Below are positions 142 to 9,847 of a DNA stretch of 44,138 bases, piece by piece. A program made the position numbers and the translations under genes. Under the pieces are notes generated by a model. The model did no database searches. It was not told the DNA's origin and worked only from the letters and a program-made list of their open reading frames with translations. Position 1 is the stretch's first letter; each line of letters starts with the position of its first letter. Origin of the DNA: Thiobacillus sp. (GTDB lineage Bacteria > Pseudomonadota > Gammaproteobacteria > Burkholderiales > Thiobacillaceae); the NCBI GenBank assembly GCA_024708885.1, contig JANJXT010000067.1, forward strand, positions 1 through 44,138, read 5' to 3'.

Positions 142-435
142 TTCCAGCACGCATTGATCCGGCAACGGCCCGACGATGGTCAGCAGGTCGTCCGCGTAGA
201 TGTAACGCACGGGGTCGAGCGTTGCACCGTTGAGCGCGAGGCTGATCAATTCCAGCGCTTCGCCGTTCAGTATCAGCGCGCTGCTTGCGACCGCCGGGTT
301 GCGTGTGCATGCGAGACGCGAACGCACTTCGGTGTGACCGTCGCGGATGGCGACATGCAGGTCAACCGATTCGATCCACCAGGCGGGCGGGGTGTAGTCC
401 TTCAGGAACCGCGTGACGGGGGTTTCGGTGCGCAT
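139..435 (-). pseudogene. pepN: Aminopeptidase N, N-terminal 98 codons, cut by IS insertion
   Basis: The frame starts at an ATG (433-435). It reads like the first hundred residues of PepN, the M1 zinc aminopeptidase that removes N-terminal residues from peptides in the cytoplasm. Visible features are the KDY-PPAWW-IESVDL start of the first beta-sandwich domain, then ALILNGEALELISLALNG, which matches the N-terminal domain of E. coli PepN. The full enzyme is about 870-880 residues and carries its HEXXH site around residue 300, so nothing catalytic remains here. The frame ends in a TGA supplied by the end of the insertion sequence. The rest of pepN is expected beyond the element, left of the window. 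The start has no good ribosome-binding site and lies directly after a toxin-gene remnant, so upstream sequence has probably been rearranged too. Confidence 0.8.
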
Positions 436-440
436 GGGGA

Positions 441-533
441 TTTGGCGGCGGCCTGCGGGTTGTCGGCGGCGATATAGTCGAAGATGTCGCGAAGCCACGT
501 CTGGGCTTCGTTCGTCCACCTCAGTTCGACCAC
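441..533 (-). pseudogene. ParE/RelE-family toxin, N-terminal remnant
   Basis: A GTG start at 531-533 overlaps the end of the antitoxin gene by 13 bases, the usual arrangement in type II toxin-antitoxin pairs. The first 31 codons resemble the start of ParE/RelE toxins: a VELRWT beta strand, then LRDIFDYIAADNPQAA, the first helices with the IAxDNP motif. The similarity then stops abruptly. The frame continues out of phase through the pepN start and ends at 402. An intact toxin of this family is about 90-100 residues, so about two thirds is missing, including the C-terminal strands that carry the activity. This looks like a deletion joining the toxin to pepN. The name rests on motif recognition. 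Confidence 0.6.
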
Positions 534-706
534 GTCTTGATCCGGTGCAGCATGTCCTCGTTGCTGACCACGCGGCGCTTGCGTGCGTCTTCCAGTCCGC
601 GTTGCACCATACGGTCAAACGCCAGTTCGCGAACGATCTCGTCGTAAGTGGCATCCTCGGGCTGTGACTGCACCAGATTCTGGATCAACGCTTTAGCCGT
701 ATTCAT
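521..706 (-). CDS. Small antitoxin of a ParE/RelE-type pair
   Basis: This 61-residue protein starts at an ATG (704-706) with a strong AAGGAG ribosome-binding site just upstream on the minus strand. It is acidic to neutral and helical, with a central YDEIVRELAFDRMVQRGLED stretch and a VSNEDMLHRIKTW ending. Short proteins of this type occur widely next to ParE/RelE toxins and are taken to be their antitoxins. It has no recognisable DNA-binding domain that I can name. Its partner gene downstream overlaps it but survives only as a 31-codon fragment, so the antitoxin is now an orphan. The assignment as antitoxin is inferred from arrangement and family likeness. Confidence 0.6.
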   Translation of the reverse strand: MNTAKALIQNLVQSQPEDATYDEIVRELAFDRMVQRGLEDARKRRVVSNEDMLHRIKTWSN

Positions 707-810
707 GGTGGCGCTCCTTAAGGAAGGGGGGGGGATGGTTTCAACTATTGGCGATGAGCATTTCATTGTAAAGAAGTCATAGCTTGTCTGATGATGGTGT
801 GCAGGATGAG
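707..810 (-). promoter_or_regulatory. Leader of the orphan antitoxin with a nine-base G/C tract
   Basis: This gap separates vapC from the antitoxin gene. On the minus strand a TACAAT hexamer (765-770) makes a plausible -10 element. No convincing -35 is visible at the right distance. A run of nine G on the plus strand (726-734), C on the coding strand, lies between this element and the AAGGAG ribosome-binding site. Confidence 0.35.
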
Positions 811-1206
811 TCAAACCCAGTTCTCGACGATGAGTCCGGGGTAATCCCTGAAATCCGCTTCATTGTTGGTGACGAGCGTGAGGCCGAGACTCGCTGCGTG
901 CGCGGCGATCAGCCGATCCAGTGCGTCGCGGCGACGGTCGCGGACGGCGGCAGCGAAAACGCCGTATTGCACGGCAACGGCGTGGTCGATCGGCAGCACG
1001 GGCAGGTAAGTCAGTAGATTATTCAGCGCGCGCTCGGCTTCGCGTTTGGTGCCAGGGTCGCGCTCGACGCCGTGCCGCAATTCAGCCAGGGTGACGACCG
1101 AGATAAGCAGATCGCCGTAATCGAATGCCTGAAAGCGGCGTAGCAGGTCGGGCGGATGGCGCTGGATGAGGTGGACACAGATGTTGGTGTCGAGCAGGTA
1201 GCGCAT
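811..1206 (-). CDS. vapC: VapC-family PIN-domain ribonuclease toxin
   Basis: This 131-residue protein is a single PIN domain of normal VapC length. VapC toxins are magnesium-dependent endoribonucleases that stop translation by cutting tRNA or rRNA when their antitoxin is lost. The acidic residues expected in the active site are present: Asp6 in the LLDTN start, Glu42 in TLAELRHG, Asp97 before LIAAHA, and Asp118 in TNNEADF. The gene starts four bases after the vapB stop on the same strand, so the two are one operon. No residue loss or truncation is visible, so the toxin looks functional. The RNA it cuts cannot be told from sequence. Confidence 0.9.
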   Translation of the reverse strand: MRYLLDTNICVHLIQRHPPDLLRRFQAFDYGDLLISVVTLAELRHGVERDPGTKREAERALNNLLTYLPVLPIDHAVAVQYGVFAAAVRDRRRDALDRLIAAHAASLGLTLVTNNEADFRDYPGLIVENWV

Positions 1207-1210
1207 GGGC

Positions 1211-1510
1211 TTACTTGTCGCCCGCCGGTTTGTACACTGGGCTGTCCTGATGTGCAGCTGAACTTTCGCCGAAGCCGCTCCAATCGCGTTCTTTTTGCTC
1301 GTGGAATTCGCGGCCTTCGGCCATGAAGCCGGGTGGGAAAGCGGCGAACGCCTCGGCCAGCCCGGTCAATTTGCGTTTGACTACCGGGCGCAGCACCAGG
1401 GTGTCACCGACTTTTTCGATCTCGACATCCTGGCTGGCCTCGACGATGGCGAGTTCCTTGGGAATGCGGACGGCGAGCGAGTTGCCGCTTTTGAAGACGC
1501 GTGTGAGCAT
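1211..1510 (-). CDS. vapB: VapB antitoxin with AbrB/SpoVT-type DNA-binding domain
   Basis: The protein has 99 residues. The first 45 form a swapped-hairpin AbrB/MazE-type domain, recognised by the VFKSGNSLAVRIPKEL start and the following VEIEKVGDTLVLRP strand. This domain dimerises and binds the operon's own operator. The remaining half (GLAEAFAAFPPGF onward, ending in a disordered tail) would wrap around VapC and block its active site. It starts at the ATG at 1508-1510, ten bases downstream of the ribosome-binding sequence and behind a palindrome that covers the promoter. Self-repression is therefore expected. Confidence 0.88.
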   Translation of the reverse strand: MLTRVFKSGNSLAVRIPKELAIVEASQDVEIEKVGDTLVLRPVVKRKLTGLAEAFAAFPPGFMAEGREFHEQKERDWSGFGESSAAHQDSPVYKPAGDK

Positions 1511-1523
1511 GGTTGATCTCCTG

Positions 1524-1561
1524 TGTATATACAGGATATACAACGGGCCGGACGGAGGCAA
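1524..1561 (-). promoter_or_regulatory. vapBC promoter with palindromic operator
   Basis: On the minus strand TTGCCT (1556-1561) and TATCCT (1533-1538) are separated by exactly 17 bp and form a plausible sigma-70 promoter. A perfect inverted repeat, TGTATAT-ACAGG-ATATACA at 1524-1542, lies across the -10 element and about 14 bp from the vapB start. The position suits binding of the VapB-VapC complex and autorepression. The strand, spacing and repeat are seen directly; the regulator is inferred. Confidence 0.6.
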
Positions 1562-1581
1562 GTCAGCCGGGTAATTGCGGC

Positions 1582-2727
1582 TTACAGCGCGCCTTCCTGT
1601 TCGCCTTTGAGGTTGTGCTGTTGCATGTAATCCAGCAAAGCCACGAATGCGGCGGGCAGTTCGGGGGTTTGCCGCAATTGGGCGATGCGTGCGCTGTCCC
1701 AGGCGTTGAGTGCGCCATGGCTGGGCAGGCTTTGCAGGGTGGCGATGTCCATCTGCCAGGGCTGCCAGTCGAGTCCGGCGGCTTGCCACAGCGCGCCGGC
1801 CTGCAGGGCGATGGCGACGCCGGCGGGATCGGGGTCGCAGGCGATGGCGGCGGGGGCGGGTGAGAGTGCGAGCAAATGCGCCACGGCTTCGCGCCACCAG
1901 CCGGGCGGAAAACCGGGCAGCCAGATGACGCCGGTGTCGGCGTCGCGCGCGCGAGCGACGCGCTCGAAGCTGGTGCGGTTTTCCACCAGTTGCCAGTGGG
2001 CCGGCGCGCCGTCGGCGGACGTGGCGGCGGCGAGGGTGGCGGGGGTGAGGGCGCAAAAGTCGGCGCAGGCGGCGAGGTCGAGCACGCCTTGTGGCAGCTG
2101 CAGCGTGACCGGCGCGGCGATCAGCAGCAGCGGCGTGTGACGCTCGATGCCCCATTCGGCGAGATCGGTTGCTTCGCCGAGCCAGGCCCATTCGGCGGAA
2201 CTGATGGCCTTGGTGGCGCCGCGTGCAAACAGCGCGAAATCGCGCTGGGTGCCGTTGCATTGTTCGGCCTGCCAGCGGACGAGTGCGCTGGCGAGATCGG
2301 CGCGGGCGAGCGCGGTTCTGGGCGGCAGCGCATCGAGCGCGTCGAGCAGCGGCGTGTCCGGCGGCAGGGCGTCGCGAAGGCTTTGCCAGTTCGCCGCCGT
2401 CGCCTCCGCATCCGCGATGCCGAGCGCTGCGCGCAGGGCGGCGGGTTCCTGAAATTGCACCCGGTACGGCCACCATTCGGCGCGCTCGAATTTTTCGCTC
2501 AGCCGAATCCAGCCGTTGTCCAGCAGCCAGTCGAGCAGCGCCTGCGCCAGATTCTGCCGCCCCACGCCGGCGTCGCCCTTGAGCGTTTCCCAGCGGCTGT
2601 CGCCGCCGCGCCTGACCCAGCGTTTCAGCAGTTGCCGCCAGTCGTCGGGCAGGCTGTCGAGTCCGCGCGGCGCTTGTTCGGATACGCGCAGCCGCCGGGT
2701 TTTGCTCTGCGTGACGACGCGCAGCAT
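1582..2727 (-). CDS. jetD: Wadjet subunit JetD (Toprim nuclease)
   Basis: The protein has 381 residues. JetD is the nuclease of the Wadjet anti-plasmid system and cuts small circular DNA that the SMC motor has extruded. The C-terminal half shows a Toprim fold: Glu249 in the LVEN motif at the end of a beta strand, and the DxD pair Asp298/Asp300 in the DPDPAGVAIAL segment, the metal-binding residues of this family. The N-terminal half (about 1-170) would be the winged-helix and arm region that binds the complex. The ATG at 2725-2727 is two bases after the jetC stop and was preferred over an upstream in-frame start that would overlap jetC. No catalytic residue appears to be lost. It belongs to the DUF2220-like group; I could not fix the Wadjet subtype. 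Confidence 0.85.
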   Translation of the reverse strand: MLRVVTQSKTRRLRVSEQAPRGLDSLPDDWRQLLKRWVRRGGDSRWETLKGDAGVGRQNLAQALLDWLLDNGWIRLSEKFERAEWWPYRVQFQEPAALRAALGIADAEATAANWQSLRDALPPDTPLLDALDALPPRTALARADLASALVRWQAEQCNGTQRDFALFARGATKAISSAEWAWLGEATDLAEWGIERHTPLLLIAAPVTLQLPQGVLDLAACADFCALTPATLAAATSADGAPAHWQLVENRTSFERVARARDADTGVIWLPGFPPGWWREAVAHLLALSPAPAAIACDPDPAGVAIALQAGALWQAAGLDWQPWQMDIATLQSLPSHGALNAWDSARIAQLRQTPELPAAFVALLDYMQQHNLKGEQEGAL

Positions 2728-2729
2728 GG

Positions 2730-5501
2730 TCAATGCGTCGTCGAGGTGTCGCGCATCAATACTTTCACGCCCGGCGCCCACGCCTCGCCCGGGCGTTTCT
2801 TGAACGTCACCAGCGTCAGCGTGGCCGGGTCGTAGATGTTGACGTTGTGCGTGACCGGCGTGGTGAGCAGGTACTGCGCCCTGGTCGCTTTCAAGAAGCC
2901 CGACACGCGCTCGATGTTGACGATGTCGAGATGCGCGAAGGGCTCGTCGATGAAGACGAAGCCGCCGGGGCGCGACTCTTCCATCATCAGCGCCACCAGC
3001 AGGATCAGCGACTTCATCACCTGCTGGCCGCCGGAGGCGTCGCCGTCGTTCATGCCCATGAAGCCCTTGGCGTCGAAGTCGAAGCGCACGGCCAGCCCTG
3101 CCTGCGCCAGCGTGACGTCGTCGTTGCCGAGCGCCACCGGCTCGTGATCAACACGAATGCCGGCGACCTCGCCCAGGGTCTTGAGGTTCTTGGCGTAGCG
3201 GCCGACGGTGTGGCGCAGCACGGCGATGTAGTGTTCGCGCGCGGCCTGGGTCTGTTCGCTGGCGAGTTCATTGTCGCGGCGGCGCGCGGCGAGATCGGCT
3301 TCCATCTGCCGGTAGTTGGCGGCGATCCTGTCGCGCAGGGCCACGACGGCCTCGTCGGTTTCCCAGCTTTCGTCGGCGAACTTGGTGTCGATTTCAGCCA
3401 GGCGGCGGTCGATGTTGGTGGCATCGCGCCATGTTTCCAGCAGTTGCTGGTTGGCCGCGGCGTCGCGCCAGGCGATGGGCATCTGGCTACGGTCGCGCCG
3501 CAGTTTCAAACGGCGGCGGATCTGTTCGTCGCGTCCGCTGCGGTTTTCGCGTTCGGCGATCTCCTTGTCGAGCCGGACACGTTCAGCATCGAGCCCGGTG
3601 CGCCGGCTGCGCAGATCGGCGATGGCCTTATCCGCCGCTTCGCGTTCCTGCTGCGCCGCCAGCACGCCGTTGTCGCGGCGACGCAGCACCAGCGCCTCGT
3701 ATTGCGTGCGTGCTTCGGCGAATTCGGCGGCGCGCTGGGCCAATTGCGCGGCGGCGGTTTCGCCGCTCAGTTGCGCTTTCATGCCGTTGATTTTGCTTGC
3801 GAGATCGGCTTGCTGGGCCTTGAGCGGCAGGAGCGCTTTGTCGAGCGCCGCGCGTTCGTCGCGCAACGCGTCCAGCCGGGCGCGGCCGAAGCGCATCTGC
3901 TCGGGCGCGGCAAAGCGGCCGCCGCGCCGCTCGCGCAGGTAGCCTTGCCGGGTGATCCAGTCTTCGCCGCGCGGCAGCCTGCTGCCCGCGGCGACGTCTT
4001 CGACGCGGCGGGTGCGTTCCAGCGTGCGCAGCAGCCATTCCGGCACGGCGCTGGAAAAGCGCACCACTTCGAGCAGCGAGCCCTGCGGCGGCAGGCCCGC
4101 GTTCACGCATTCGGGGACGATGAAGTTGCGGTAGCGCTGTTTTTCGCCGAGCGCCATCGCGCGTTCGGCGTCGCGGCCATGTTGCAAGAGCACGATGTGG
4201 GCGAACGGTGCGAGCGCGGCCTCGACCGCCGGCTGCCAGCCCGCATCGACGATTTCGACGACATCGGTGAGCAGGTGGTGGGCGATGTCGGCGGCGCTCA
4301 GCGCCTGGCGAAAAGCCGCCACGTCGTGCGGGTCGGCACGGCGGCCGGCGGCGAGGTTTTCCAGCATTTCGTCGAGCTGGGTCCGGCGCTGCTGCAGGCC
4401 GGCGATGTTGACCAGCAGATCGGCACGCTGCGATTCGAGACGCTCGATTTCGCGGGCGTCGGCGACCTCGCCGCCGGTCGCCTGCGCCTGCTCTTCCAGG
4501 CGCTGCTGCTGCCTGACGATCGTTTCCCAGCCGCCGAGCTCGTGGTTGATCTCGTTGAGTGCCTGGTTCTGGATTTTTTCGTTGTCGTCGGCGGCGCGTT
4601 TGCGCAGCAGCGCCTGCGCGAGCGCGGCATCGAGCGCATCGGAATCCATTTGCAGCGCGGCGCGTTCGTCGCGCCGGGCGCGCCAGTCGCGGCGTTGCGT
4701 CAGCAACGTCCGCGCGGCATGCTCGGCTTCGCGCTGCAACAGGCAATGTTCCAGACGCGGCCGGGTTTCACTGACGAGCGTGATGCGTTCCTGGTTGAGG
4801 CGCTGCCACTCGCGGTAGCGGTTGACCTTCTGCTCGTGTTTCTCGAGATTGTTGCCGAGCGCTTCGAGCTGGTTCTGGCCGGCGTCGAGTTCGCGCGCGG
4901 TGTGCTCCTGGTGGTGGCGCGCCTCCTGGTAGCGGTCGAGCACGTCCTTGTCGCCGAACACCTGGAATACCAGATCGAGCAGTTCGCGTGGCGACAGTTC
5001 GCACAGCTTGTCGGTCTGCCCCTGTTCGAGCGAGAGCACGCGGGCGATGGCGGGCGACAGGCCGGCGCCGTGCAGGATGCGCTGGTAGTCGCGCACGCCG
5101 AATTCCTCGCCCTGTTTTTCGAGCTCGGCCAAGGCGACTTCGCCGTCGGCGATCCAGTATTTGCGCGTCCAGTCGCCGCCTTTTTTGTCGATGCGGCAGG
5201 CGAGCGTGATGCGGTCGCCGGTGTAGGGCAGGCCGAACGGGCGGCGGCTGGAGCCCGGCGCGCGCTGGTTGTCGATCACGCCGCGCAGCCAGCAGAAGTC
5301 CTCGCCGTTGCGCCGCACGTAGCGCTTGTAGTCGCGCTTTTTCGAGCAGTCGAGCGCCAGCAGGGTGCGCAGCGCATCGAGCAGCGTGGTCTTGCCCGAG
5401 CCGTTGGGACCGGAGATGGTGACGATGGAGGCGTCGAGCGGCAGCCGGAAGTTGCGCCAGAAATCCCAGTGCACGGTTTCGAGTTCGAGCAGGCGGAACA
5501 T
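2730..5501 (-). CDS. jetC: Wadjet subunit JetC (SMC/MukB-like ATPase)
   Basis: The protein has 923 residues and is the motor of the complex: an SMC-type ATPase that would extrude DNA loops. The N-terminal head has Walker A GPNGSGKTT (Lys37). Two long coiled-coil arms, rich in Glu, Arg, Gln and Ala, flank a globular middle (around WQPAVEAALAPFAHIVLL), which I take to be the hinge. The C-terminal head has an ASGGQQ signature (about 822-827), Walker B GFVFIDEPFAHLD with Glu853, and a following TH. The signature has GQQ where SMC proteins usually have GE. Its ATG overlaps the jetB stop as TGATG. The alternative names SbcC and RecN are less likely because the jetABD partners flank it. Confidence 0.9.
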   Translation of the reverse strand: MFRLLELETVHWDFWRNFRLPLDASIVTISGPNGSGKTTLLDALRTLLALDCSKKRDYKRYVRRNGEDFCWLRGVIDNQRAPGSSRRPFGLPYTGDRITLACRIDKKGGDWTRKYWIADGEVALAELEKQGEEFGVRDYQRILHGAGLSPAIARVLSLEQGQTDKLCELSPRELLDLVFQVFGDKDVLDRYQEARHHQEHTARELDAGQNQLEALGNNLEKHEQKVNRYREWQRLNQERITLVSETRPRLEHCLLQREAEHAARTLLTQRRDWRARRDERAALQMDSDALDAALAQALLRKRAADDNEKIQNQALNEINHELGGWETIVRQQQRLEEQAQATGGEVADAREIERLESQRADLLVNIAGLQQRRTQLDEMLENLAAGRRADPHDVAAFRQALSAADIAHHLLTDVVEIVDAGWQPAVEAALAPFAHIVLLQHGRDAERAMALGEKQRYRNFIVPECVNAGLPPQGSLLEVVRFSSAVPEWLLRTLERTRRVEDVAAGSRLPRGEDWITRQGYLRERRGGRFAAPEQMRFGRARLDALRDERAALDKALLPLKAQQADLASKINGMKAQLSGETAAAQLAQRAAEFAEARTQYEALVLRRRDNGVLAAQQEREAADKAIADLRSRRTGLDAERVRLDKEIAERENRSGRDEQIRRRLKLRRDRSQMPIAWRDAAANQQLLETWRDATNIDRRLAEIDTKFADESWETDEAVVALRDRIAANYRQMEADLAARRRDNELASEQTQAAREHYIAVLRHTVGRYAKNLKTLGEVAGIRVDHEPVALGNDDVTLAQAGLAVRFDFDAKGFMGMNDGDASGGQQVMKSLILLVALMMEESRPGGFVFIDEPFAHLDIVNIERVSGFLKATRAQYLLTTPVTHNVNIYDPATLTLVTFKKRPGEAWAPGVKVLMRDTSTTH

Positions 5502-6172
5502 CAGGCGTCGTCCTCCGGCGTGGCGACGGACTCCAGCACGCCGCGCTGCTTGAGCAGGTCGGACAGCGCGCCTTCGAGAATGCGCGGCGCGAACTCGGCG
5601 TAGTCGAAGGCGAGGTCGAGCAGCGGACCTTCGTGGATGACCTTGTTGCGGCGCTCGATGAAGCCCAGCCGCGACAATTGCGGCAGCGCGAACTGCTGCA
5701 GGCGCGCGCGGCCGCCCAGTAATTTCCCGTAGTCTTCCAGCAGCACGTTTTCGGGGATGCCGCGCGAGGCCTCGTGCGCGGCGGGCGTGAGTTTCACGGT
5801 TTCGAACAGCTCGTTTTGCGTGTCGCTCTGCGCCACTTCGCTCGCCAGCTGGCGCTCGCGCTTGGGCAGAACGATGAGCGCCCACAGAATGACCAGCAGC
5901 GCGGCGGCATCCCTGGGCAGGCCGATGTTCGACGCCTGCCAGGCATCGTTCTGCTCGAATACGGCGGCCTCGTGCTCGCGCGCAAGGGCGACCGATACAT
6001 GGCTGGCAAAAGGCTGTGCCAGCAGACGCAGGCCGCTGGCGGCGAGCCGCGTGTCGACTTCGTCGCGGAAGCTGGCGTCGACCAGCAGGCGGCGCACCTC
6101 GGCGTCGTCGCGCGGCAGGAAACGCAGCGCGAGCAGGCGCGCGATCAGGCGGGCGGCAAGGTCAGTATTCAT
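5501..6172 (-). CDS. jetB: Wadjet subunit JetB (MukE-like)
   Basis: The protein has 223 residues, about the usual size for JetB. In Wadjet complexes JetB is a MukE-like pair of winged-helix domains that binds the JetA kleisin and helps hold DNA. The sequence is helical with an AAALLVILWALIVLPKRERQ segment near residue 90-110 and a winged-helix-like end with RLGFIERRNKVIHEGPLLDLAFDY. The gene starts in an ATGA overlap with jetA (6169-6172) and ends in a TGATG overlap with jetC. This points to translation-coupled production of subunits in fixed ratio. Sequence conservation in this family is low, so the call leans on position as well as size. Confidence 0.8.
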   Translation of the reverse strand: MNTDLAARLIARLLALRFLPRDDAEVRRLLVDASFRDEVDTRLAASGLRLLAQPFASHVSVALAREHEAAVFEQNDAWQASNIGLPRDAAALLVILWALIVLPKRERQLASEVAQSDTQNELFETVKLTPAAHEASRGIPENVLLEDYGKLLGGRARLQQFALPQLSRLGFIERRNKVIHEGPLLDLAFDYAEFAPRILEGALSDLLKQRGVLESVATPEDDA

Positions 6173-7443
6173 GCTGGAGCGTCATCGTTGGTTTGCTGCG
6201 GCAGGATGCGGCCGGCGCTGATATGGGCGACTTCGCCGCGCCCAACCGCTTGCAGCTCGTCGCCCCATTGCAGCGTCAGCGGCAGATCGGCCAGCGGCGC
6301 GAGTTCGGGGCCGATGTTGGTTTCGCCGATCAGGGCGAGCAGCGACAGGCGATAGGACGCCGAACCGAAGCTGCCGCCGACGACGGTGTCGGCGACGCTG
6401 GCGGGCGATTCCAGCCTGGCGAGCATGCGGGCCAATTCGACGAGCTCGCGCGGCGGTTCCAGCGGCACGTCGCGGGTGTATTCGATTTCGGCGGGCGCGG
6501 GCATGGCCGAGGTTTTGCGATTCGGCTGCTCGCGCGCGATGAATTCCTCGGTGTTGTCGAGCATCACGTCGGGCAGCACGAAACTGCATTCCGGCGTGGT
6601 CGCCAGCCGTCCGTCGGCCAGCGCGGCGAGGCTGTCGAGCGACTGCGTTTTCAGCCAGGCCGCGAGTTCCGAGGTGGACAGGCCGCCCTGCGACAGGTGC
6701 ACCTGCTGGCGGGCGATGGCGGCGAGCTCGCGCTGGAACACCGAGGCCATGCGCAGCAGCCGCGACTGGCGCTGGCCGATGCTTTGCGCGAGCCGCCAGC
6801 TGTCGTCGTCGAGACCGGCGTCGGCCAGGTTTTTCATCACCGCGTTGGCGCGGTCGAGCCATTGCTGCACCGAGGCCAGTTTCGACTGCGCCGCGCGCAG
6901 GCGGAATTCCGAACCGGAGGCGACCGCCTGCGCAAATTCCTCTTCCAGTTCGCCCAGCCGCGCCAGCAGGTGGGACAAGGCCTCGGGCGCGAGCTTGCCG
7001 ACCGCCGCGCCCGCGGCGACCTGCGCCGCCAGAAAGCCCAGTTCGCCGTCCGCCTCCAGATTGAATGCCAGCAGGTTCGACAGCGCGGAGAGCACCATGC
7101 GGCCCTCGGTCGAGAGCTGATACACGCGGCGTTCGCCGTCCCACAGCAGCAAGGCGTGTTCGCGCAGCCGCGCCAGCACGGTATTGAGCTTGGTCTGCGA
7201 GAGGTAGGCGAAATGCGATTCGAGTTCGCGCGGCGTCCATTCCGGCGCATCGGCGCGCAGGCCGACTTCGCGCAGCACCATCAGGCGGATCAGCACTTCC
7301 TCGTCGCCGCCGCGAAACAGCGCGATCAGCGCGCCGATCAGCGGTCGTGCGGCGAGCAGCGGGAACAGCGGCGGGATGTCTTCCGCAAGCAGGCCGGGCG
7401 CGAGGAATTCCGCCAGGCTCGCGCTGTGGCCGGGTGCCTCCAC
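6169..7443 (-). CDS. jetA: Wadjet subunit JetA (MukF-like kleisin)
   Basis: The protein has 424 residues. JetA bridges the SMC heads in Wadjet as MukF does in MukBEF. An N-terminal winged-helix region (about 50-120, with RELESHFAYLSQTKLNTVLARLREHALLLW and a basic wing) is followed by a long helical middle (about 150-270) and a proline-rich stretch before a compact C-terminal domain. The start is a GTG at 7441-7443 that immediately follows the prfB stop with no gap; the end of prfB (AGCAGGG) would serve as ribosome-binding site. No ATG occurs before residue 55. The direct abutment makes co-transcription with prfB very likely. Other SMC-kleisin systems were considered, but the downstream Toprim gene makes it Wadjet. 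Confidence 0.82.
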   Translation of the reverse strand: MEAPGHSASLAEFLAPGLLAEDIPPLFPLLAARPLIGALIALFRGGDEEVLIRLMVLREVGLRADAPEWTPRELESHFAYLSQTKLNTVLARLREHALLLWDGERRVYQLSTEGRMVLSALSNLLAFNLEADGELGFLAAQVAAGAAVGKLAPEALSHLLARLGELEEEFAQAVASGSEFRLRAAQSKLASVQQWLDRANAVMKNLADAGLDDDSWRLAQSIGQRQSRLLRMASVFQRELAAIARQQVHLSQGGLSTSELAAWLKTQSLDSLAALADGRLATTPECSFVLPDVMLDNTEEFIAREQPNRKTSAMPAPAEIEYTRDVPLEPPRELVELARMLARLESPASVADTVVGGSFGSASYRLSLLALIGETNIGPELAPLADLPLTLQWGDELQAVGRGEVAHISAGRILPQQTNDDAPA

Positions 7444-8548
7444 TTACACGCCCTGCTTCAGGCTCGCTTCGATGAAGACGTCGAGATCGCCGTCGAGCAC
7501 TTTCTGGGTGGCGGAGACTTCGACGTTGGTGCGCAGATCCTTGATGCGCGAGTTGTCGAGCACGTAGGAACGGATCTGGTGGCCCCAGCCGACGTCCGCC
7601 TTGCCGGCTTCGAGCTTGTCCTGTTCGGCCTGGCGCTTTCGGAGTTCCGCTTCGTAGAGCTTCGACTTCAGCATCGACATCGCCTCGGCCTTGTTCTTGT
7701 GCTGCGAACGGTCGTTCTGGCATTGCACGACGATGTTGGTCGGCAGGTGGGTGATGCGCACCGCCGAGTCGGTCTTGTTGATGTGCTGGCCGCCCGCGCC
7801 CGATGCGCGGTAGGTGTCGATGCGCAGGTCGGCCGGGTTGATGTCGACCTCGATCGAGTCGTCGACTTCCGGGTAGACGAACACGCTGGCGAAGCTGGTG
7901 TGGCGGCCGCCCGAGGAGTCGAACGGCGATTTGCGCACCAGGCGGTGCACGCCCGTCTCGGTGCGCAGATAGCCGTAGGCGTAGTCGCCCTCGATCTTGA
8001 TACTCGCCGACTTGATGCCGGCGACGTCGCCTTCGGATTCCTCCAGCAGTTCGGCCTTGAAGCCCTTGCGCTCGGCGTATTTAAGATATTGCCGCAGCAG
8101 CATCGACGCCCAGTCGCAGGCTTCGGTGCCGCCGGCGCCGGCCTGGATGTCGAGAAAGCAGTTGCTCGGATCGGCCGGGTTGTTGAACATGCGGCGGAAT
8201 TCGAGCTGCGAGACGTCCTTTTCGATGGACTCGATGTCGAGCTGCACGGCAGCCAGCGTGTCGTCGTCGTCCTCGGCGCGTGCCATCTCGAACAGTTCGC
8301 CGGCGTCCGTGAGGCCAGCGGCGACGCGCTCGAGCACCAGCACGACGTCTTCCAGTGCCTTGCGCTCGCGGCCCAGCGCCTGCGCCTTGTCAGGGTCGTT
8401 CCAGAAATCGGGCGCCTCGGAGAGGCGGATCACTTCTTCGAGGCGGTCCTTCTTGCCAGCGTAGTCAAAGAAACCCCCGGAGCTGGCCGGAGCGCTCGCC
8501 GAGGTCGGCGATGCGGGATTCGATCTGGTTGAGGGTTTCGGCTTCCAT
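7444..8548 (-). CDS. prfB: Peptide chain release factor 2 (with programmed +1 frameshift)
   Basis: RF2 recognises UGA and UAA stop codons and releases the finished peptide. The SPF tripeptide that reads the stop codon is in [10 protein letters not shown] and the catalytic GGQ is in [17 protein letters not shown]. Translation starts at ATG 8546-8548, runs 27 codons to an in-frame UGA at 8465-8467, then shifts +1 and continues to the stop at 7444-7446, giving 367 residues (E. coli RF2 has 365). Low RF2 lets the ribosome pause and shift, so the factor regulates itself. An annotation that starts at 8433 would miss the N terminus. The gene lies 15 bp after the MgtC-like gene and directly before jetA. 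Confidence 0.95.
8464..8480 (-). promoter_or_regulatory. prfB programmed +1 frameshift site
   Basis: On the coding strand the codons are CGG GGG TTT CTT TGA followed by C. This is the conserved CTTTGAC shift sequence of prfB preceded by a G-rich, Shine-Dalgarno-like stretch. Slippage of the peptidyl-tRNA on CTT by one base moves translation into the downstream frame, where the sequence continues as RF2 ([11 protein letters not shown]). The G-rich element is less perfect than the AGGGGG of E. coli. Confidence 0.92.
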
Positions 8549-8563
8549 GGCTGTGCTCGATTG

Positions 8564-9847
8564 CTACGCGGAAAAACCGTGCATTATAACCCATCCGGCG
8601 ATCACCCCGATACCCGCTGCGCCCATGCCGGCGATCGCGTGCCGCGCCATGCGCCAGCCGCCGACGGTCAGCGTGAGCGCCGACTTGAAGACGAGATTGG
8701 CAAGGATGGCGAGGGTGATGACGTTGACCAGCACTGTGATCGACAGCGTGTCGAGGTTGTAAAGGCGCAGGCTGGAGAGTGTGATGGCCGCAACTTCGGT
8801 CAGACCGGAGACCAGCGCCACGGCATACAGCCCACGTTCTCCAAGCCAGTCGGTGAGCCATGCGGCGGCGAGCAGCACCGTGGCGTACAACAGCCCGAAG
8901 CCCAGCGCCGTGCGCAGTTCGGTGGGGTTGCCCATTTCCAGTGGCGGAAATTCGTGTTGCGGGTGCAAACGGCTGATGCCATACATCGCACCGAGGATGC
9001 CGCTCACGAGACCTGCCGCGAGCACCGGCAGCAACGCGGGGAGCACGGTCGGTGACACGATCGCGGCAAGGATGCCGAGTCGCACCAGTACCATGAGGTT
9101 GGCCAGCACGATGACCGTGACGGCGACAGGCAGCATGGCCGCGTTGGTGCGGGCGTGACGGCTGAAGGTGAGCGTGACGGCGGTGGACGAAACCAGGCCG
9201 CCGAGCAGGCCCAGCACCACCGCGCCGCGCCGTTGCCCAACCAGGCGCAACGCGGCATAGCCGACGAGGCCGACACCGGAAATCAGCACCACCATCCACC
9301 AGATCTGGTAGGGGTTGAGTGCGCCATACGGCCCGTAATCGCGGTTCGGCAGCAACGGCAGGATGATGAGCGAGAGTACGGCGAACTGCAGCACCGAGAG
9401 CAGGTCGCGGCGACTCATGTGCTGGCTGATGCCGCTCAGCTCAGGCTTGAAATACAGCAGCATGGTGGCGCCGATGCCGAGCATCACCGCAAGCTGGATT
9501 TCCTCGTGCCAGACCAGCACGCCCAGGCTGTAGCACAGCATCAGCGCCGCCACGGTGGTCGTTCCGGGATCGTCGCCGGGCTGCTGTGGCGACCGCAGAT
9601 AGGCGGCGATCATCATCGACCCGACCAGCAGCAGGCCGACGCCGATCAGCCACGATTCGTTGAGGGCCGTCGCCAGATGCGCGGCCAGCACACCGAGCAG
9701 CCCGGTCAGCGCGAACGTGCGCAAGCCGGCTTTCGCCGCCGGATTGCGCTCGCGTTCCAGCCCCATCAGCAGGCCGATGGCGAGCGCCGCGACATATCGC
9801 GGCAAGGCGGAAAGTTCGGGCGGAAGCCAGCCTGTCAGGTATTCCAT
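8564..9847 (-). CDS. MgtC/SapB and DUF4010 membrane protein
   Basis: The protein has about 427 residues from the ATG at 9845-9847. I chose this start because the upstream in-frame region (to 9925) is not hydrophobic and reads like leader sequence. The N-terminal part resembles the MgtC/SapB domain, with [14 protein letters not shown] as its marker followed by a transmembrane helix and TFALTGLLG. The C-terminal part is the DUF4010 region with many more membrane segments. I count roughly eleven or twelve. The role of the family is not established; MgtC relatives affect magnesium stress and ATP synthase. It is the first gene of the unit that continues into prfB and jetABCD, with 15 bp to prfB. 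Confidence 0.8.

Follow-up and report, generated by a model that had tools for sequence, protein, structure and literature searches.

A complete JetABCD operon in Thiobacillus, probably of a divergent Wadjet-like branch in which the Toprim nuclease is optional

We analysed a stretch of 44,138 nucleotides from Thiobacillus sp. (assembly GCA_024708885.1, contig JANJXT010000067.1; hereafter the window), which is an entire 44-kb contig of a 2.56 Mb genome in 67 contigs, and concentrated on four adjoining minus-strand genes at 1582-7443 that encode JetA-, JetB-, JetC- and JetD-like proteins, all in open, full-length frames. Together they probably specify a complete and working complex of a structural maintenance of chromosomes (SMC) ATPase, a kleisin, a kleisin-interacting tandem winged-helix element (KITE) protein and a Toprim nuclease, which would belong to a divergent, untyped branch of the Wadjet/Mks systems nearest to type I. 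In the window genome this complex would cleave plasmids, and in relatives that carry JetABC without JetD the motor would probably serve as an accessory condensin. Our argument starts from direct observations, namely the gene set, its motifs and predicted folds, their conservation, the absence and remnants of JetD, and purifying selection. The four genes are as follows.

6169..7443, minus strand: jetA, kleisin-like subunit, 424 residues, GTG start (open reading frame, homologues, AlphaFold model)
5501..6172, minus strand: jetB, KITE (tandem winged-helix) subunit, 223 residues (open reading frame, 32-row alignment, predicted fold)
2730..5501, minus strand: jetC, SMC ATPase, 923 residues from ATG 5501, inside a longer open frame (Pfam, PADLOC, invariant residues)
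1582..2781, minus strand: jetD, Toprim nuclease subunit, 399 residues from GTG 2781 or 381 residues from ATG 2727 (PADLOC JetD1)

An earlier note on this DNA had described a complete set of overlapping Wadjet genes; the open reading frames agree with it, and at their junctions the genes overlap or abut. The GTG start of jetA directly follows the stop codon of prfB with zero gap, jetA and jetB overlap by ATGA, jetB and jetC by TGATG, and jetD starts either at GTG 2781, overlapping jetC, or at ATG 2727, two bases past the jetC stop. The A-B-C-D order is that of Wadjet. Since this order recurs in the loci fetched from relatives and JetA homologues with 79-96% identity are present in 13 other genomes of the genus (one a fragment, one in two pieces), the operon is far beyond chance. 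The nearest named relatives of the window JetC are metagenome-assembled genomes labelled Thiobacillus, Hydrogenophilales or by class only, and many of the other genomes sampled are of this kind.

JetC has 923 residues and, as had been noted, intact Walker motifs. Walker A is GPNGSGKTT (31-39), the signature is SGGQQ (823-827) and Walker B lies at about 848-854 (FIDEP at 850-854); across an alignment of 36 rows, the residues of Walker A, SGGQQ and FIDEP are either invariant or conserved to at least 90%. An SMC-like hinge occupies about 390-520, limits set by eye. Pfam SMC_N matches the protein with 57 bits, and its best Jet match in PADLOC is JetC1 (E 3.4e-18), with the non-Wadjet ATPase models mad3 and LmuB close behind. 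In hhalign the JetC profile aligned over nearly its whole length with a type I-like JetC set (probability 99.4, E 5e-22), and over part of the head only with MksB-like proteins (probability 97.2); here and below, reference loci are called type I-like or MksBEF-like on the basis of gene order, SMC length and a match to JetA1 or PF21980. Among PDB sequences the best match of the profile is PA14 JetC (8dk2, E 1.1e-8), and the Smc construct 4rsj, which we take to be an SMC hinge, is matched with E 1.7e-6. The window JetC is an SMC protein in which Walker A, signature and Walker B are all present, as expected of Wadjet. Its SGGQQ had been read as a departure from the usual SGGE, and we considered it as the mark of an odd branch; this had to be given up, since SGGQ is found in six, and SGGE in three, of the nine type I-like JetC proteins used for comparison.

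The assignment of JetD as a Toprim subunit is borne out by PADLOC JetD1, which matches the window protein with E 1.4e-14 over residues 207-369, the Toprim half, and likewise matches all 33 aligned homologues (JetD2 matches 22 of the 33). The predicted metal ligands E267, D316 and D318, numbered from the GTG, are the Glu249, Asp298 and Asp300 of the earlier note, whose numbering fits the ATG 2727 start. E267 and D316 are invariant in 33 full-length rows and D318 is at least 90% conserved, with a His in one row; a C-terminal KGEQE is conserved in the same alignment. Window JetD combines a Toprim profile match with the acidic residues, as a Wadjet JetD should.

For JetB, the AlphaFold model (predicted local distance difference test 77, predicted template modelling (TM) score 0.70) has the E. 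coli and PA14 Wadjet JetABC chains as its top three Foldseek matches (E 3.2e-4, 1.6e-3 and 4.2e-3): 8as8_C (TM 0.52/0.59) and then two 8dk1 chains, with ScpAB/ScpB chains next. The matched Wadjet chains, 176-195 residues long, were taken as JetB by length, and the window model has the KITE fold of type I Wadjet JetB. At the sequence level, the single PADLOC models JetB1 and JetB3 match 1-3 of 32 JetB rows (best E 0.0028; JetB3 alone three rows, best E 0.018), and Pfam DUF4194 matches nine of the 32 weakly (best E 0.0038), the window JetB not being among them. The JetA model (predicted local distance difference test 80, predicted TM score 0.43) places MukE-MukF, JetABCD, MukBEF and Wadjet-II JetABC chains at ranks 1-4 of 740 PDB matches; the chains are unnamed in the Foldseek listing and their kleisin identity was judged from length. 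PADLOC JetA1 matches one of 41 JetA rows (E 0.005), in a library that presumably includes type II and III JetA models too. Pfam and NCBIfam at E 0.01 gave nothing for JetA, JetB or JetD, and searches of PDB sequences with these three gave no useful match.

The main interest of the system lies, in our opinion, less in the operon alone than in the repeated parting of motor and nuclease within its family. From genome_contigs, the nearest 80 of 124 JetC relatives were kept. These loci include Thiobacillus, Gallionellaceae, Methylotenera, Thauera, Methyloversatilis and Chitinibacteraceae, with a few Solimonas and Geobacteraceae and one deltaproteobacterium. Of the 69 that could be decided, 42 have JetD and 27 lack it despite more than 2 kb of room; the other 11 are cut off by a contig edge. 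In the order sample of 300 genomes (JetC at E 1e-60, JetD profile at E 1e-5, both scans apparently of the same genomes), JetC was found in 46 and JetD in 10, all 10 among the 46. This leaves 36 JetC genomes without JetD, six of them single-contig (G413, G461, G581, G621, G639 and G650). Absence was judged with the JetD profile in these 300 genomes, from the locus alone in the 80 loci, and by a search with a single JetD sequence at E 0.01 in 20 genomes, most of them selected because no JetD lies beside JetC. Of these 20, 14 gave no JetD match, three a full-length and three a partial one. Nineteen of 20 order-level loci (19 of the 20 from genomes without a JetD match) were long enough to judge; all 19, of which 18 come from genomes picked as JetD-less, have JetA, JetB and JetC, and JetD is absent in 18. 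The contrast also occurs within genera: Thauera linaloolentis and Methyloversatilis thermotolerans have JetD, whereas Thauera propionica and Methyloversatilis universalis EHg5 have none.

Some genomes that hold an intact JetABC also carry a remnant of JetD. Three of these remnants sit inside contigs other than that of jetC: L126 keeps profile positions 215-401 and L128 positions 314-400, both without the N-terminal part, and in L127 positions 3-77 are fused in one frame to 259-400, an internal deletion. In a Thiobacillus contig (fetched twice, as L032 and L070) only the last 34 JetD residues are left, directly behind jetC. On a JetC tree of 75 rows, thinned from 104 (row L151 stems from a match with an in-frame stop), there are 12 switches between JetD presence and absence or remnant among the 70 rows to which a state was assigned, or 14 if the five undecided rows count as an extra state. 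With a mixture model and 62 settled rows there are 10 changes, nine of them forced by well-supported branches, and nine changes when six long rows are left out. Tree counts alone give no direction, but because of the remnants some of these changes are losses, at least for the lineages concerned. JetD is a detachable, optional module in this branch. In one genome (G055, loci L035 and L047) JetD is 61% and JetC 84% identical to those of the window, a gap suggesting that, in one lineage, the nuclease gene was swapped independently of the motor.

The motor is still under selection without JetD, because dN/dS (the ratio of nonsynonymous to synonymous substitution rates) of JetABC is 0.06-0.35 where JetD is missing or reduced to a remnant (11 pairs, which gave 33 comparisons; some states judged from the locus alone). 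In JetD-bearing pairs it is 0.09-0.17 for JetABC and 0.11-0.35 for JetD; in the five Thiobacillus pairs JetD is the faster-evolving part (0.22-0.35, against 0.09-0.17 for JetABC), and the one Gallionellaceae pair has the JetD value of 0.11. JetABC as the sole condensin of these cells was rejected, given that ScpA of SMC-ScpAB is present in 33 of 33 genomes checked (a search for ScpA, not for SMC or ScpB). We also inspected up to 3 kb after jetC in 43 JetD-less loci, 18 of them order-level and 25 from genome_contigs (the 27 there without L058 and L070). At E 0.5 these stretches held no sign of JetD, and no replacement effector stood out, though several shared frames lacked an identification; each such frame is common to at most eight loci, one is lysS-like and some are probably antisense. 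A lineage-specific replacement effector may exist.

As to occurrence, JetA was found at E 1e-3 in 16 of 117 genomes of the window's family, 15 of them clear and one (G085) weak, and in three of 274 genomes of a class sample, namely that of the window, G144 with a broken copy and G277 with a weak match interrupted by stops. The operon also has a preferred chromosomal neighbourhood. Many of the 80 nearest loci are cut short. Among the 63 in which JetA starts at least 1 kb from an edge, 42 have prfB within 1.5 kb upstream of jetA and in the same orientation (21 with JetD, 12 without and 9 left undecided by a contig end), and 20 have a lysS-like gene downstream. In the 20 order-level loci prfB was nearby in none. 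Within the genus, all 14 fetched JetA loci (from 13 genomes, the window excluded) have prfB next or next-but-one upstream, with vapC between in three, and a locus of another genus (G020) has no prfB. Among eight genomes of the genus that lack the operon, five have a presumed pepN-like gene directly after prfB, so that the operon has a defined site in this genus. The flanking features in the window are these.

7444..8433, minus strand: prfB (release factor 2), upstream neighbour that marks the site and lies outside the machine (Pfam PCRF and RF-1)
811..1206, minus strand: VapC-like PIN-domain gene, an optional neighbour downstream of jetD (Pfam PIN, E 2.1e-19)

The open reading frame at 7444-8433 alone misses the N-terminus of prfB, because what we take to be the release factor 2 frameshift context, CTTTGAC, lies upstream of it at about 8430-8530 on the minus strand. 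A frame at about 1211-1510, upstream of the VapC-like gene, is presumably an antitoxin, so that a VapBC-like pair (811-1510) would stand between jetD and the pepN-like gene. The position of vapC varies in the genus: it lies between prfB and jetA in L029, L032 and L033, after jetD in L027 and L037, and was not found in others. Two operon-free loci have other genes some kb after prfB (L240 of G054, 3119-9261, and L239 of G078, 230-3708), which we presume to be restriction-modification and helicase genes; the region after prfB may be a local defence hot spot. One bin (G098) has two jetA copies, L033 and L040, about 82% and 49% identical to that of the window and each near a prfB; with a contamination value of 7, the bin may be mixed. 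The genes are spaced more widely in some loci: jetB and jetC are 926-1604 bases apart in Thauera and relatives (L086, L091, L092, L099, L101, L103, L104, L111 and L119), jetAB is parted from jetC by 6 kb in Thauera linaloolentis (L093), and JetD lies 5.4 kb downstream of JetC in Methyloversatilis thermotolerans (L105). Phages or plasmids as the usual carriers found no support: none of 74 pattern-matching stretches in viral_contigs encodes a JetA relative, and plasmid records gave no JetA match. Partial JetC matches occurred in two plasmid records, both large Variovorax replicons, and the one examined lies between IS66 and IS1071 genes.

Several results weigh against the reading of the operon as a plasmid-cleaving Wadjet relative. 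In PADLOC, window JetA and JetB match no Jet model. In hhalign, they show no sequence link to the type I-like or MksBEF-like sets (probability below 3), and the JetD profile reached a probability of only 0.2 against six type I-like JetD, although PADLOC JetD1 did match. For JetA and JetD the method proved blind, as the controls of type I-like against MksBEF-like sets gave 0.7 and 0.3, whereas the same control worked for JetB (probability 96) and five cross-subunit controls all stayed at or below 1.7. The fold match of JetA is weak (E at least 0.013, TM below 0.26, with the low predicted TM score given above), which makes the assignment of JetA as a kleisin the weakest part of the operon's identification. 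A Pfam scan of 14 other window proteins revealed no further defence genes (PADLOC was applied to three of the 14). Finally, a repeated chromosomal site together with a frequent lack of JetD is more condensin-like than defence-like. The earlier assignment to Wadjet therefore holds in part: the gene set, the order, the JetD1-like JetD and the SMC-type JetC support it, whereas JetA and JetB escape the profiles and the operon is not a typed Wadjet. Nor does the set match another SMC family without a Toprim subunit, though many relatives lack JetD. The suggestion that this may be a less-studied branch is supported.

It is doubtful that the operon is simply an ordinary type I Wadjet diverged past the reach of the JetA and JetB models, with no separate branch. 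JetC and JetD do match JetC1 and JetD1 best among Jet models, the fold matches of JetB are Wadjet chains, DUF4194 is weakly recognisable in some JetB rows, and JetC shares with type I both the SGGQ signature and the match to the construct taken as a hinge. However, in the JetB control that worked, hhalign links the type I-like set with the MksBEF-like one, and JetB of the window branch is linked to neither. The window JetC also falls short of the nine type I-like JetC proteins (1107-1223 residues, starts unrefined) by about 180-300 residues, and PADLOC JetA1 matches only the one JetA row given above.

We regard it as unlikely that the system is primarily a chromosomal SMC complex, that is, an MksBEF-like accessory condensin in which JetD, where present, would serve the chromosome or repair and not act against plasmids. 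The prfB and lysS-like neighbours, the 36 JetD-less genomes, the presence of JetA, JetB and JetC in all 19 order-level loci long enough to judge and the purifying selection on JetABC without JetD all fit such a role, as does the part of MksBEF in chromosome organisation and segregation beside SMC in P. aeruginosa (PMC7485682). Yet the catalytic residues of JetD are kept in the full-length rows, the one His apart, and the patchy occurrence, with clear JetA in 15 of 117 family genomes, is unlike that of a housekeeping condensin. That the window genome holds a decaying or non-functional remnant is very improbable: damaged copies do occur among relatives (JetC is split over two frames in L026, as is JetA in L037, and L041 has pieces of JetA and JetD), but in the window each of the four genes has an open frame of full length, the motifs are intact and dN/dS lies well below 1.

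For the preferred reading, that of a complete complex which cleaves plasmids here and leaves an accessory condensin where JetD is missing, we used the mechanism of type I Wadjet, as set out in PMC10586767, as an analogy. Two JetABC motors, joined through the kleisin, would reel in DNA with ATP. A small circle would be extruded completely, so that the motors would meet and JetD would cut the DNA; plasmids would be removed and the chromosome spared. In JetD-less relatives JetABC would most likely be an accessory condensin beside SMC-ScpAB, like MksBEF of P. aeruginosa. It is from this analogy that we infer loop extrusion, DNA cleavage, the plasmid target and hence a role in plasmid defence, as well as the condensin role.

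It is attractive to go one step further and see in the branch a fourth Wadjet-like type, often beside prfB in Betaproteobacteria, which lost its nuclease many times and kept the JetABC motor for another job, and which would thus stand between plasmid defence and chromosome condensin; the case for this seems to us evenly balanced. What is notable in either event is the repeated absence of JetD, with some remnants, inside one orthologous family whose motor stays selected. The family offers a natural test of the way in which an organiser of the chromosome might arise from a defence machine, and what the motor does after loss of the cutter could be tested directly in related strains that have or lack JetD, some of which are in culture. 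In practical terms, the PADLOC models used miss two of the four subunits of the system.

With respect to known systems, the operon resembles type I Wadjet (JetABCD; EptABCD; C. glutamicum MksBEFG) in its A-B-C-D order, the SGGQ/SGGE signature, the JetD1-like Toprim protein, the JetB fold and the JetC profile match over most of its length. It differs in that JetA and JetB of the branch go unrecognised by PADLOC, JetC is shorter, the genes often lie beside prfB and JetD is often absent. With MksBEF it shares the size of the SMC protein (about 917-943 residues in the four MksBEF-like loci fetched) and the ability to occur without a nuclease beside SMC-ScpAB. It is unlike MksBEF in several ways: Pfam MksE (PF21980) has no match in the window genome (G000), nor is it among the families matched by the 32 JetB rows; in the four MksB-like proteins Walker A takes another form (NNxGKS/T) and an S[GT]G[EQG] motif is missing; hhalign links neither JetA nor JetB to the four MksBEF-like loci; and the window operon has JetD, even if many relatives do not. 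In P. aeruginosa MksBEF occurs without a nuclease beside SMC-ScpAB, as described in PMC10586767 and PMC7485682. Titles and abstract openings returned by our literature searches contained no paper on the branch. MksBEF families were reportedly defined by Petrushenko et al. in 2011, and the branch may be one of them.

Types II and III were compared through PADLOC and Foldseek. The operon shares with them the four-subunit logic, the JetD2 matches of part of the JetD rows and the Wadjet-II chain at rank 4 for the JetA model. It differs from them in its short JetC and in the match of the latter to Smc construct 4rsj, presumed above to be a hinge. Wadjet-I has an SMC hinge with a channel, while types II and III and MukBEF have none and have longer arms, with exceptions in type III (PMC12647877). 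By its sequence, fold and profile matches taken together, the branch is nearest to type I, but it is not one that can be filed as a typed Wadjet.

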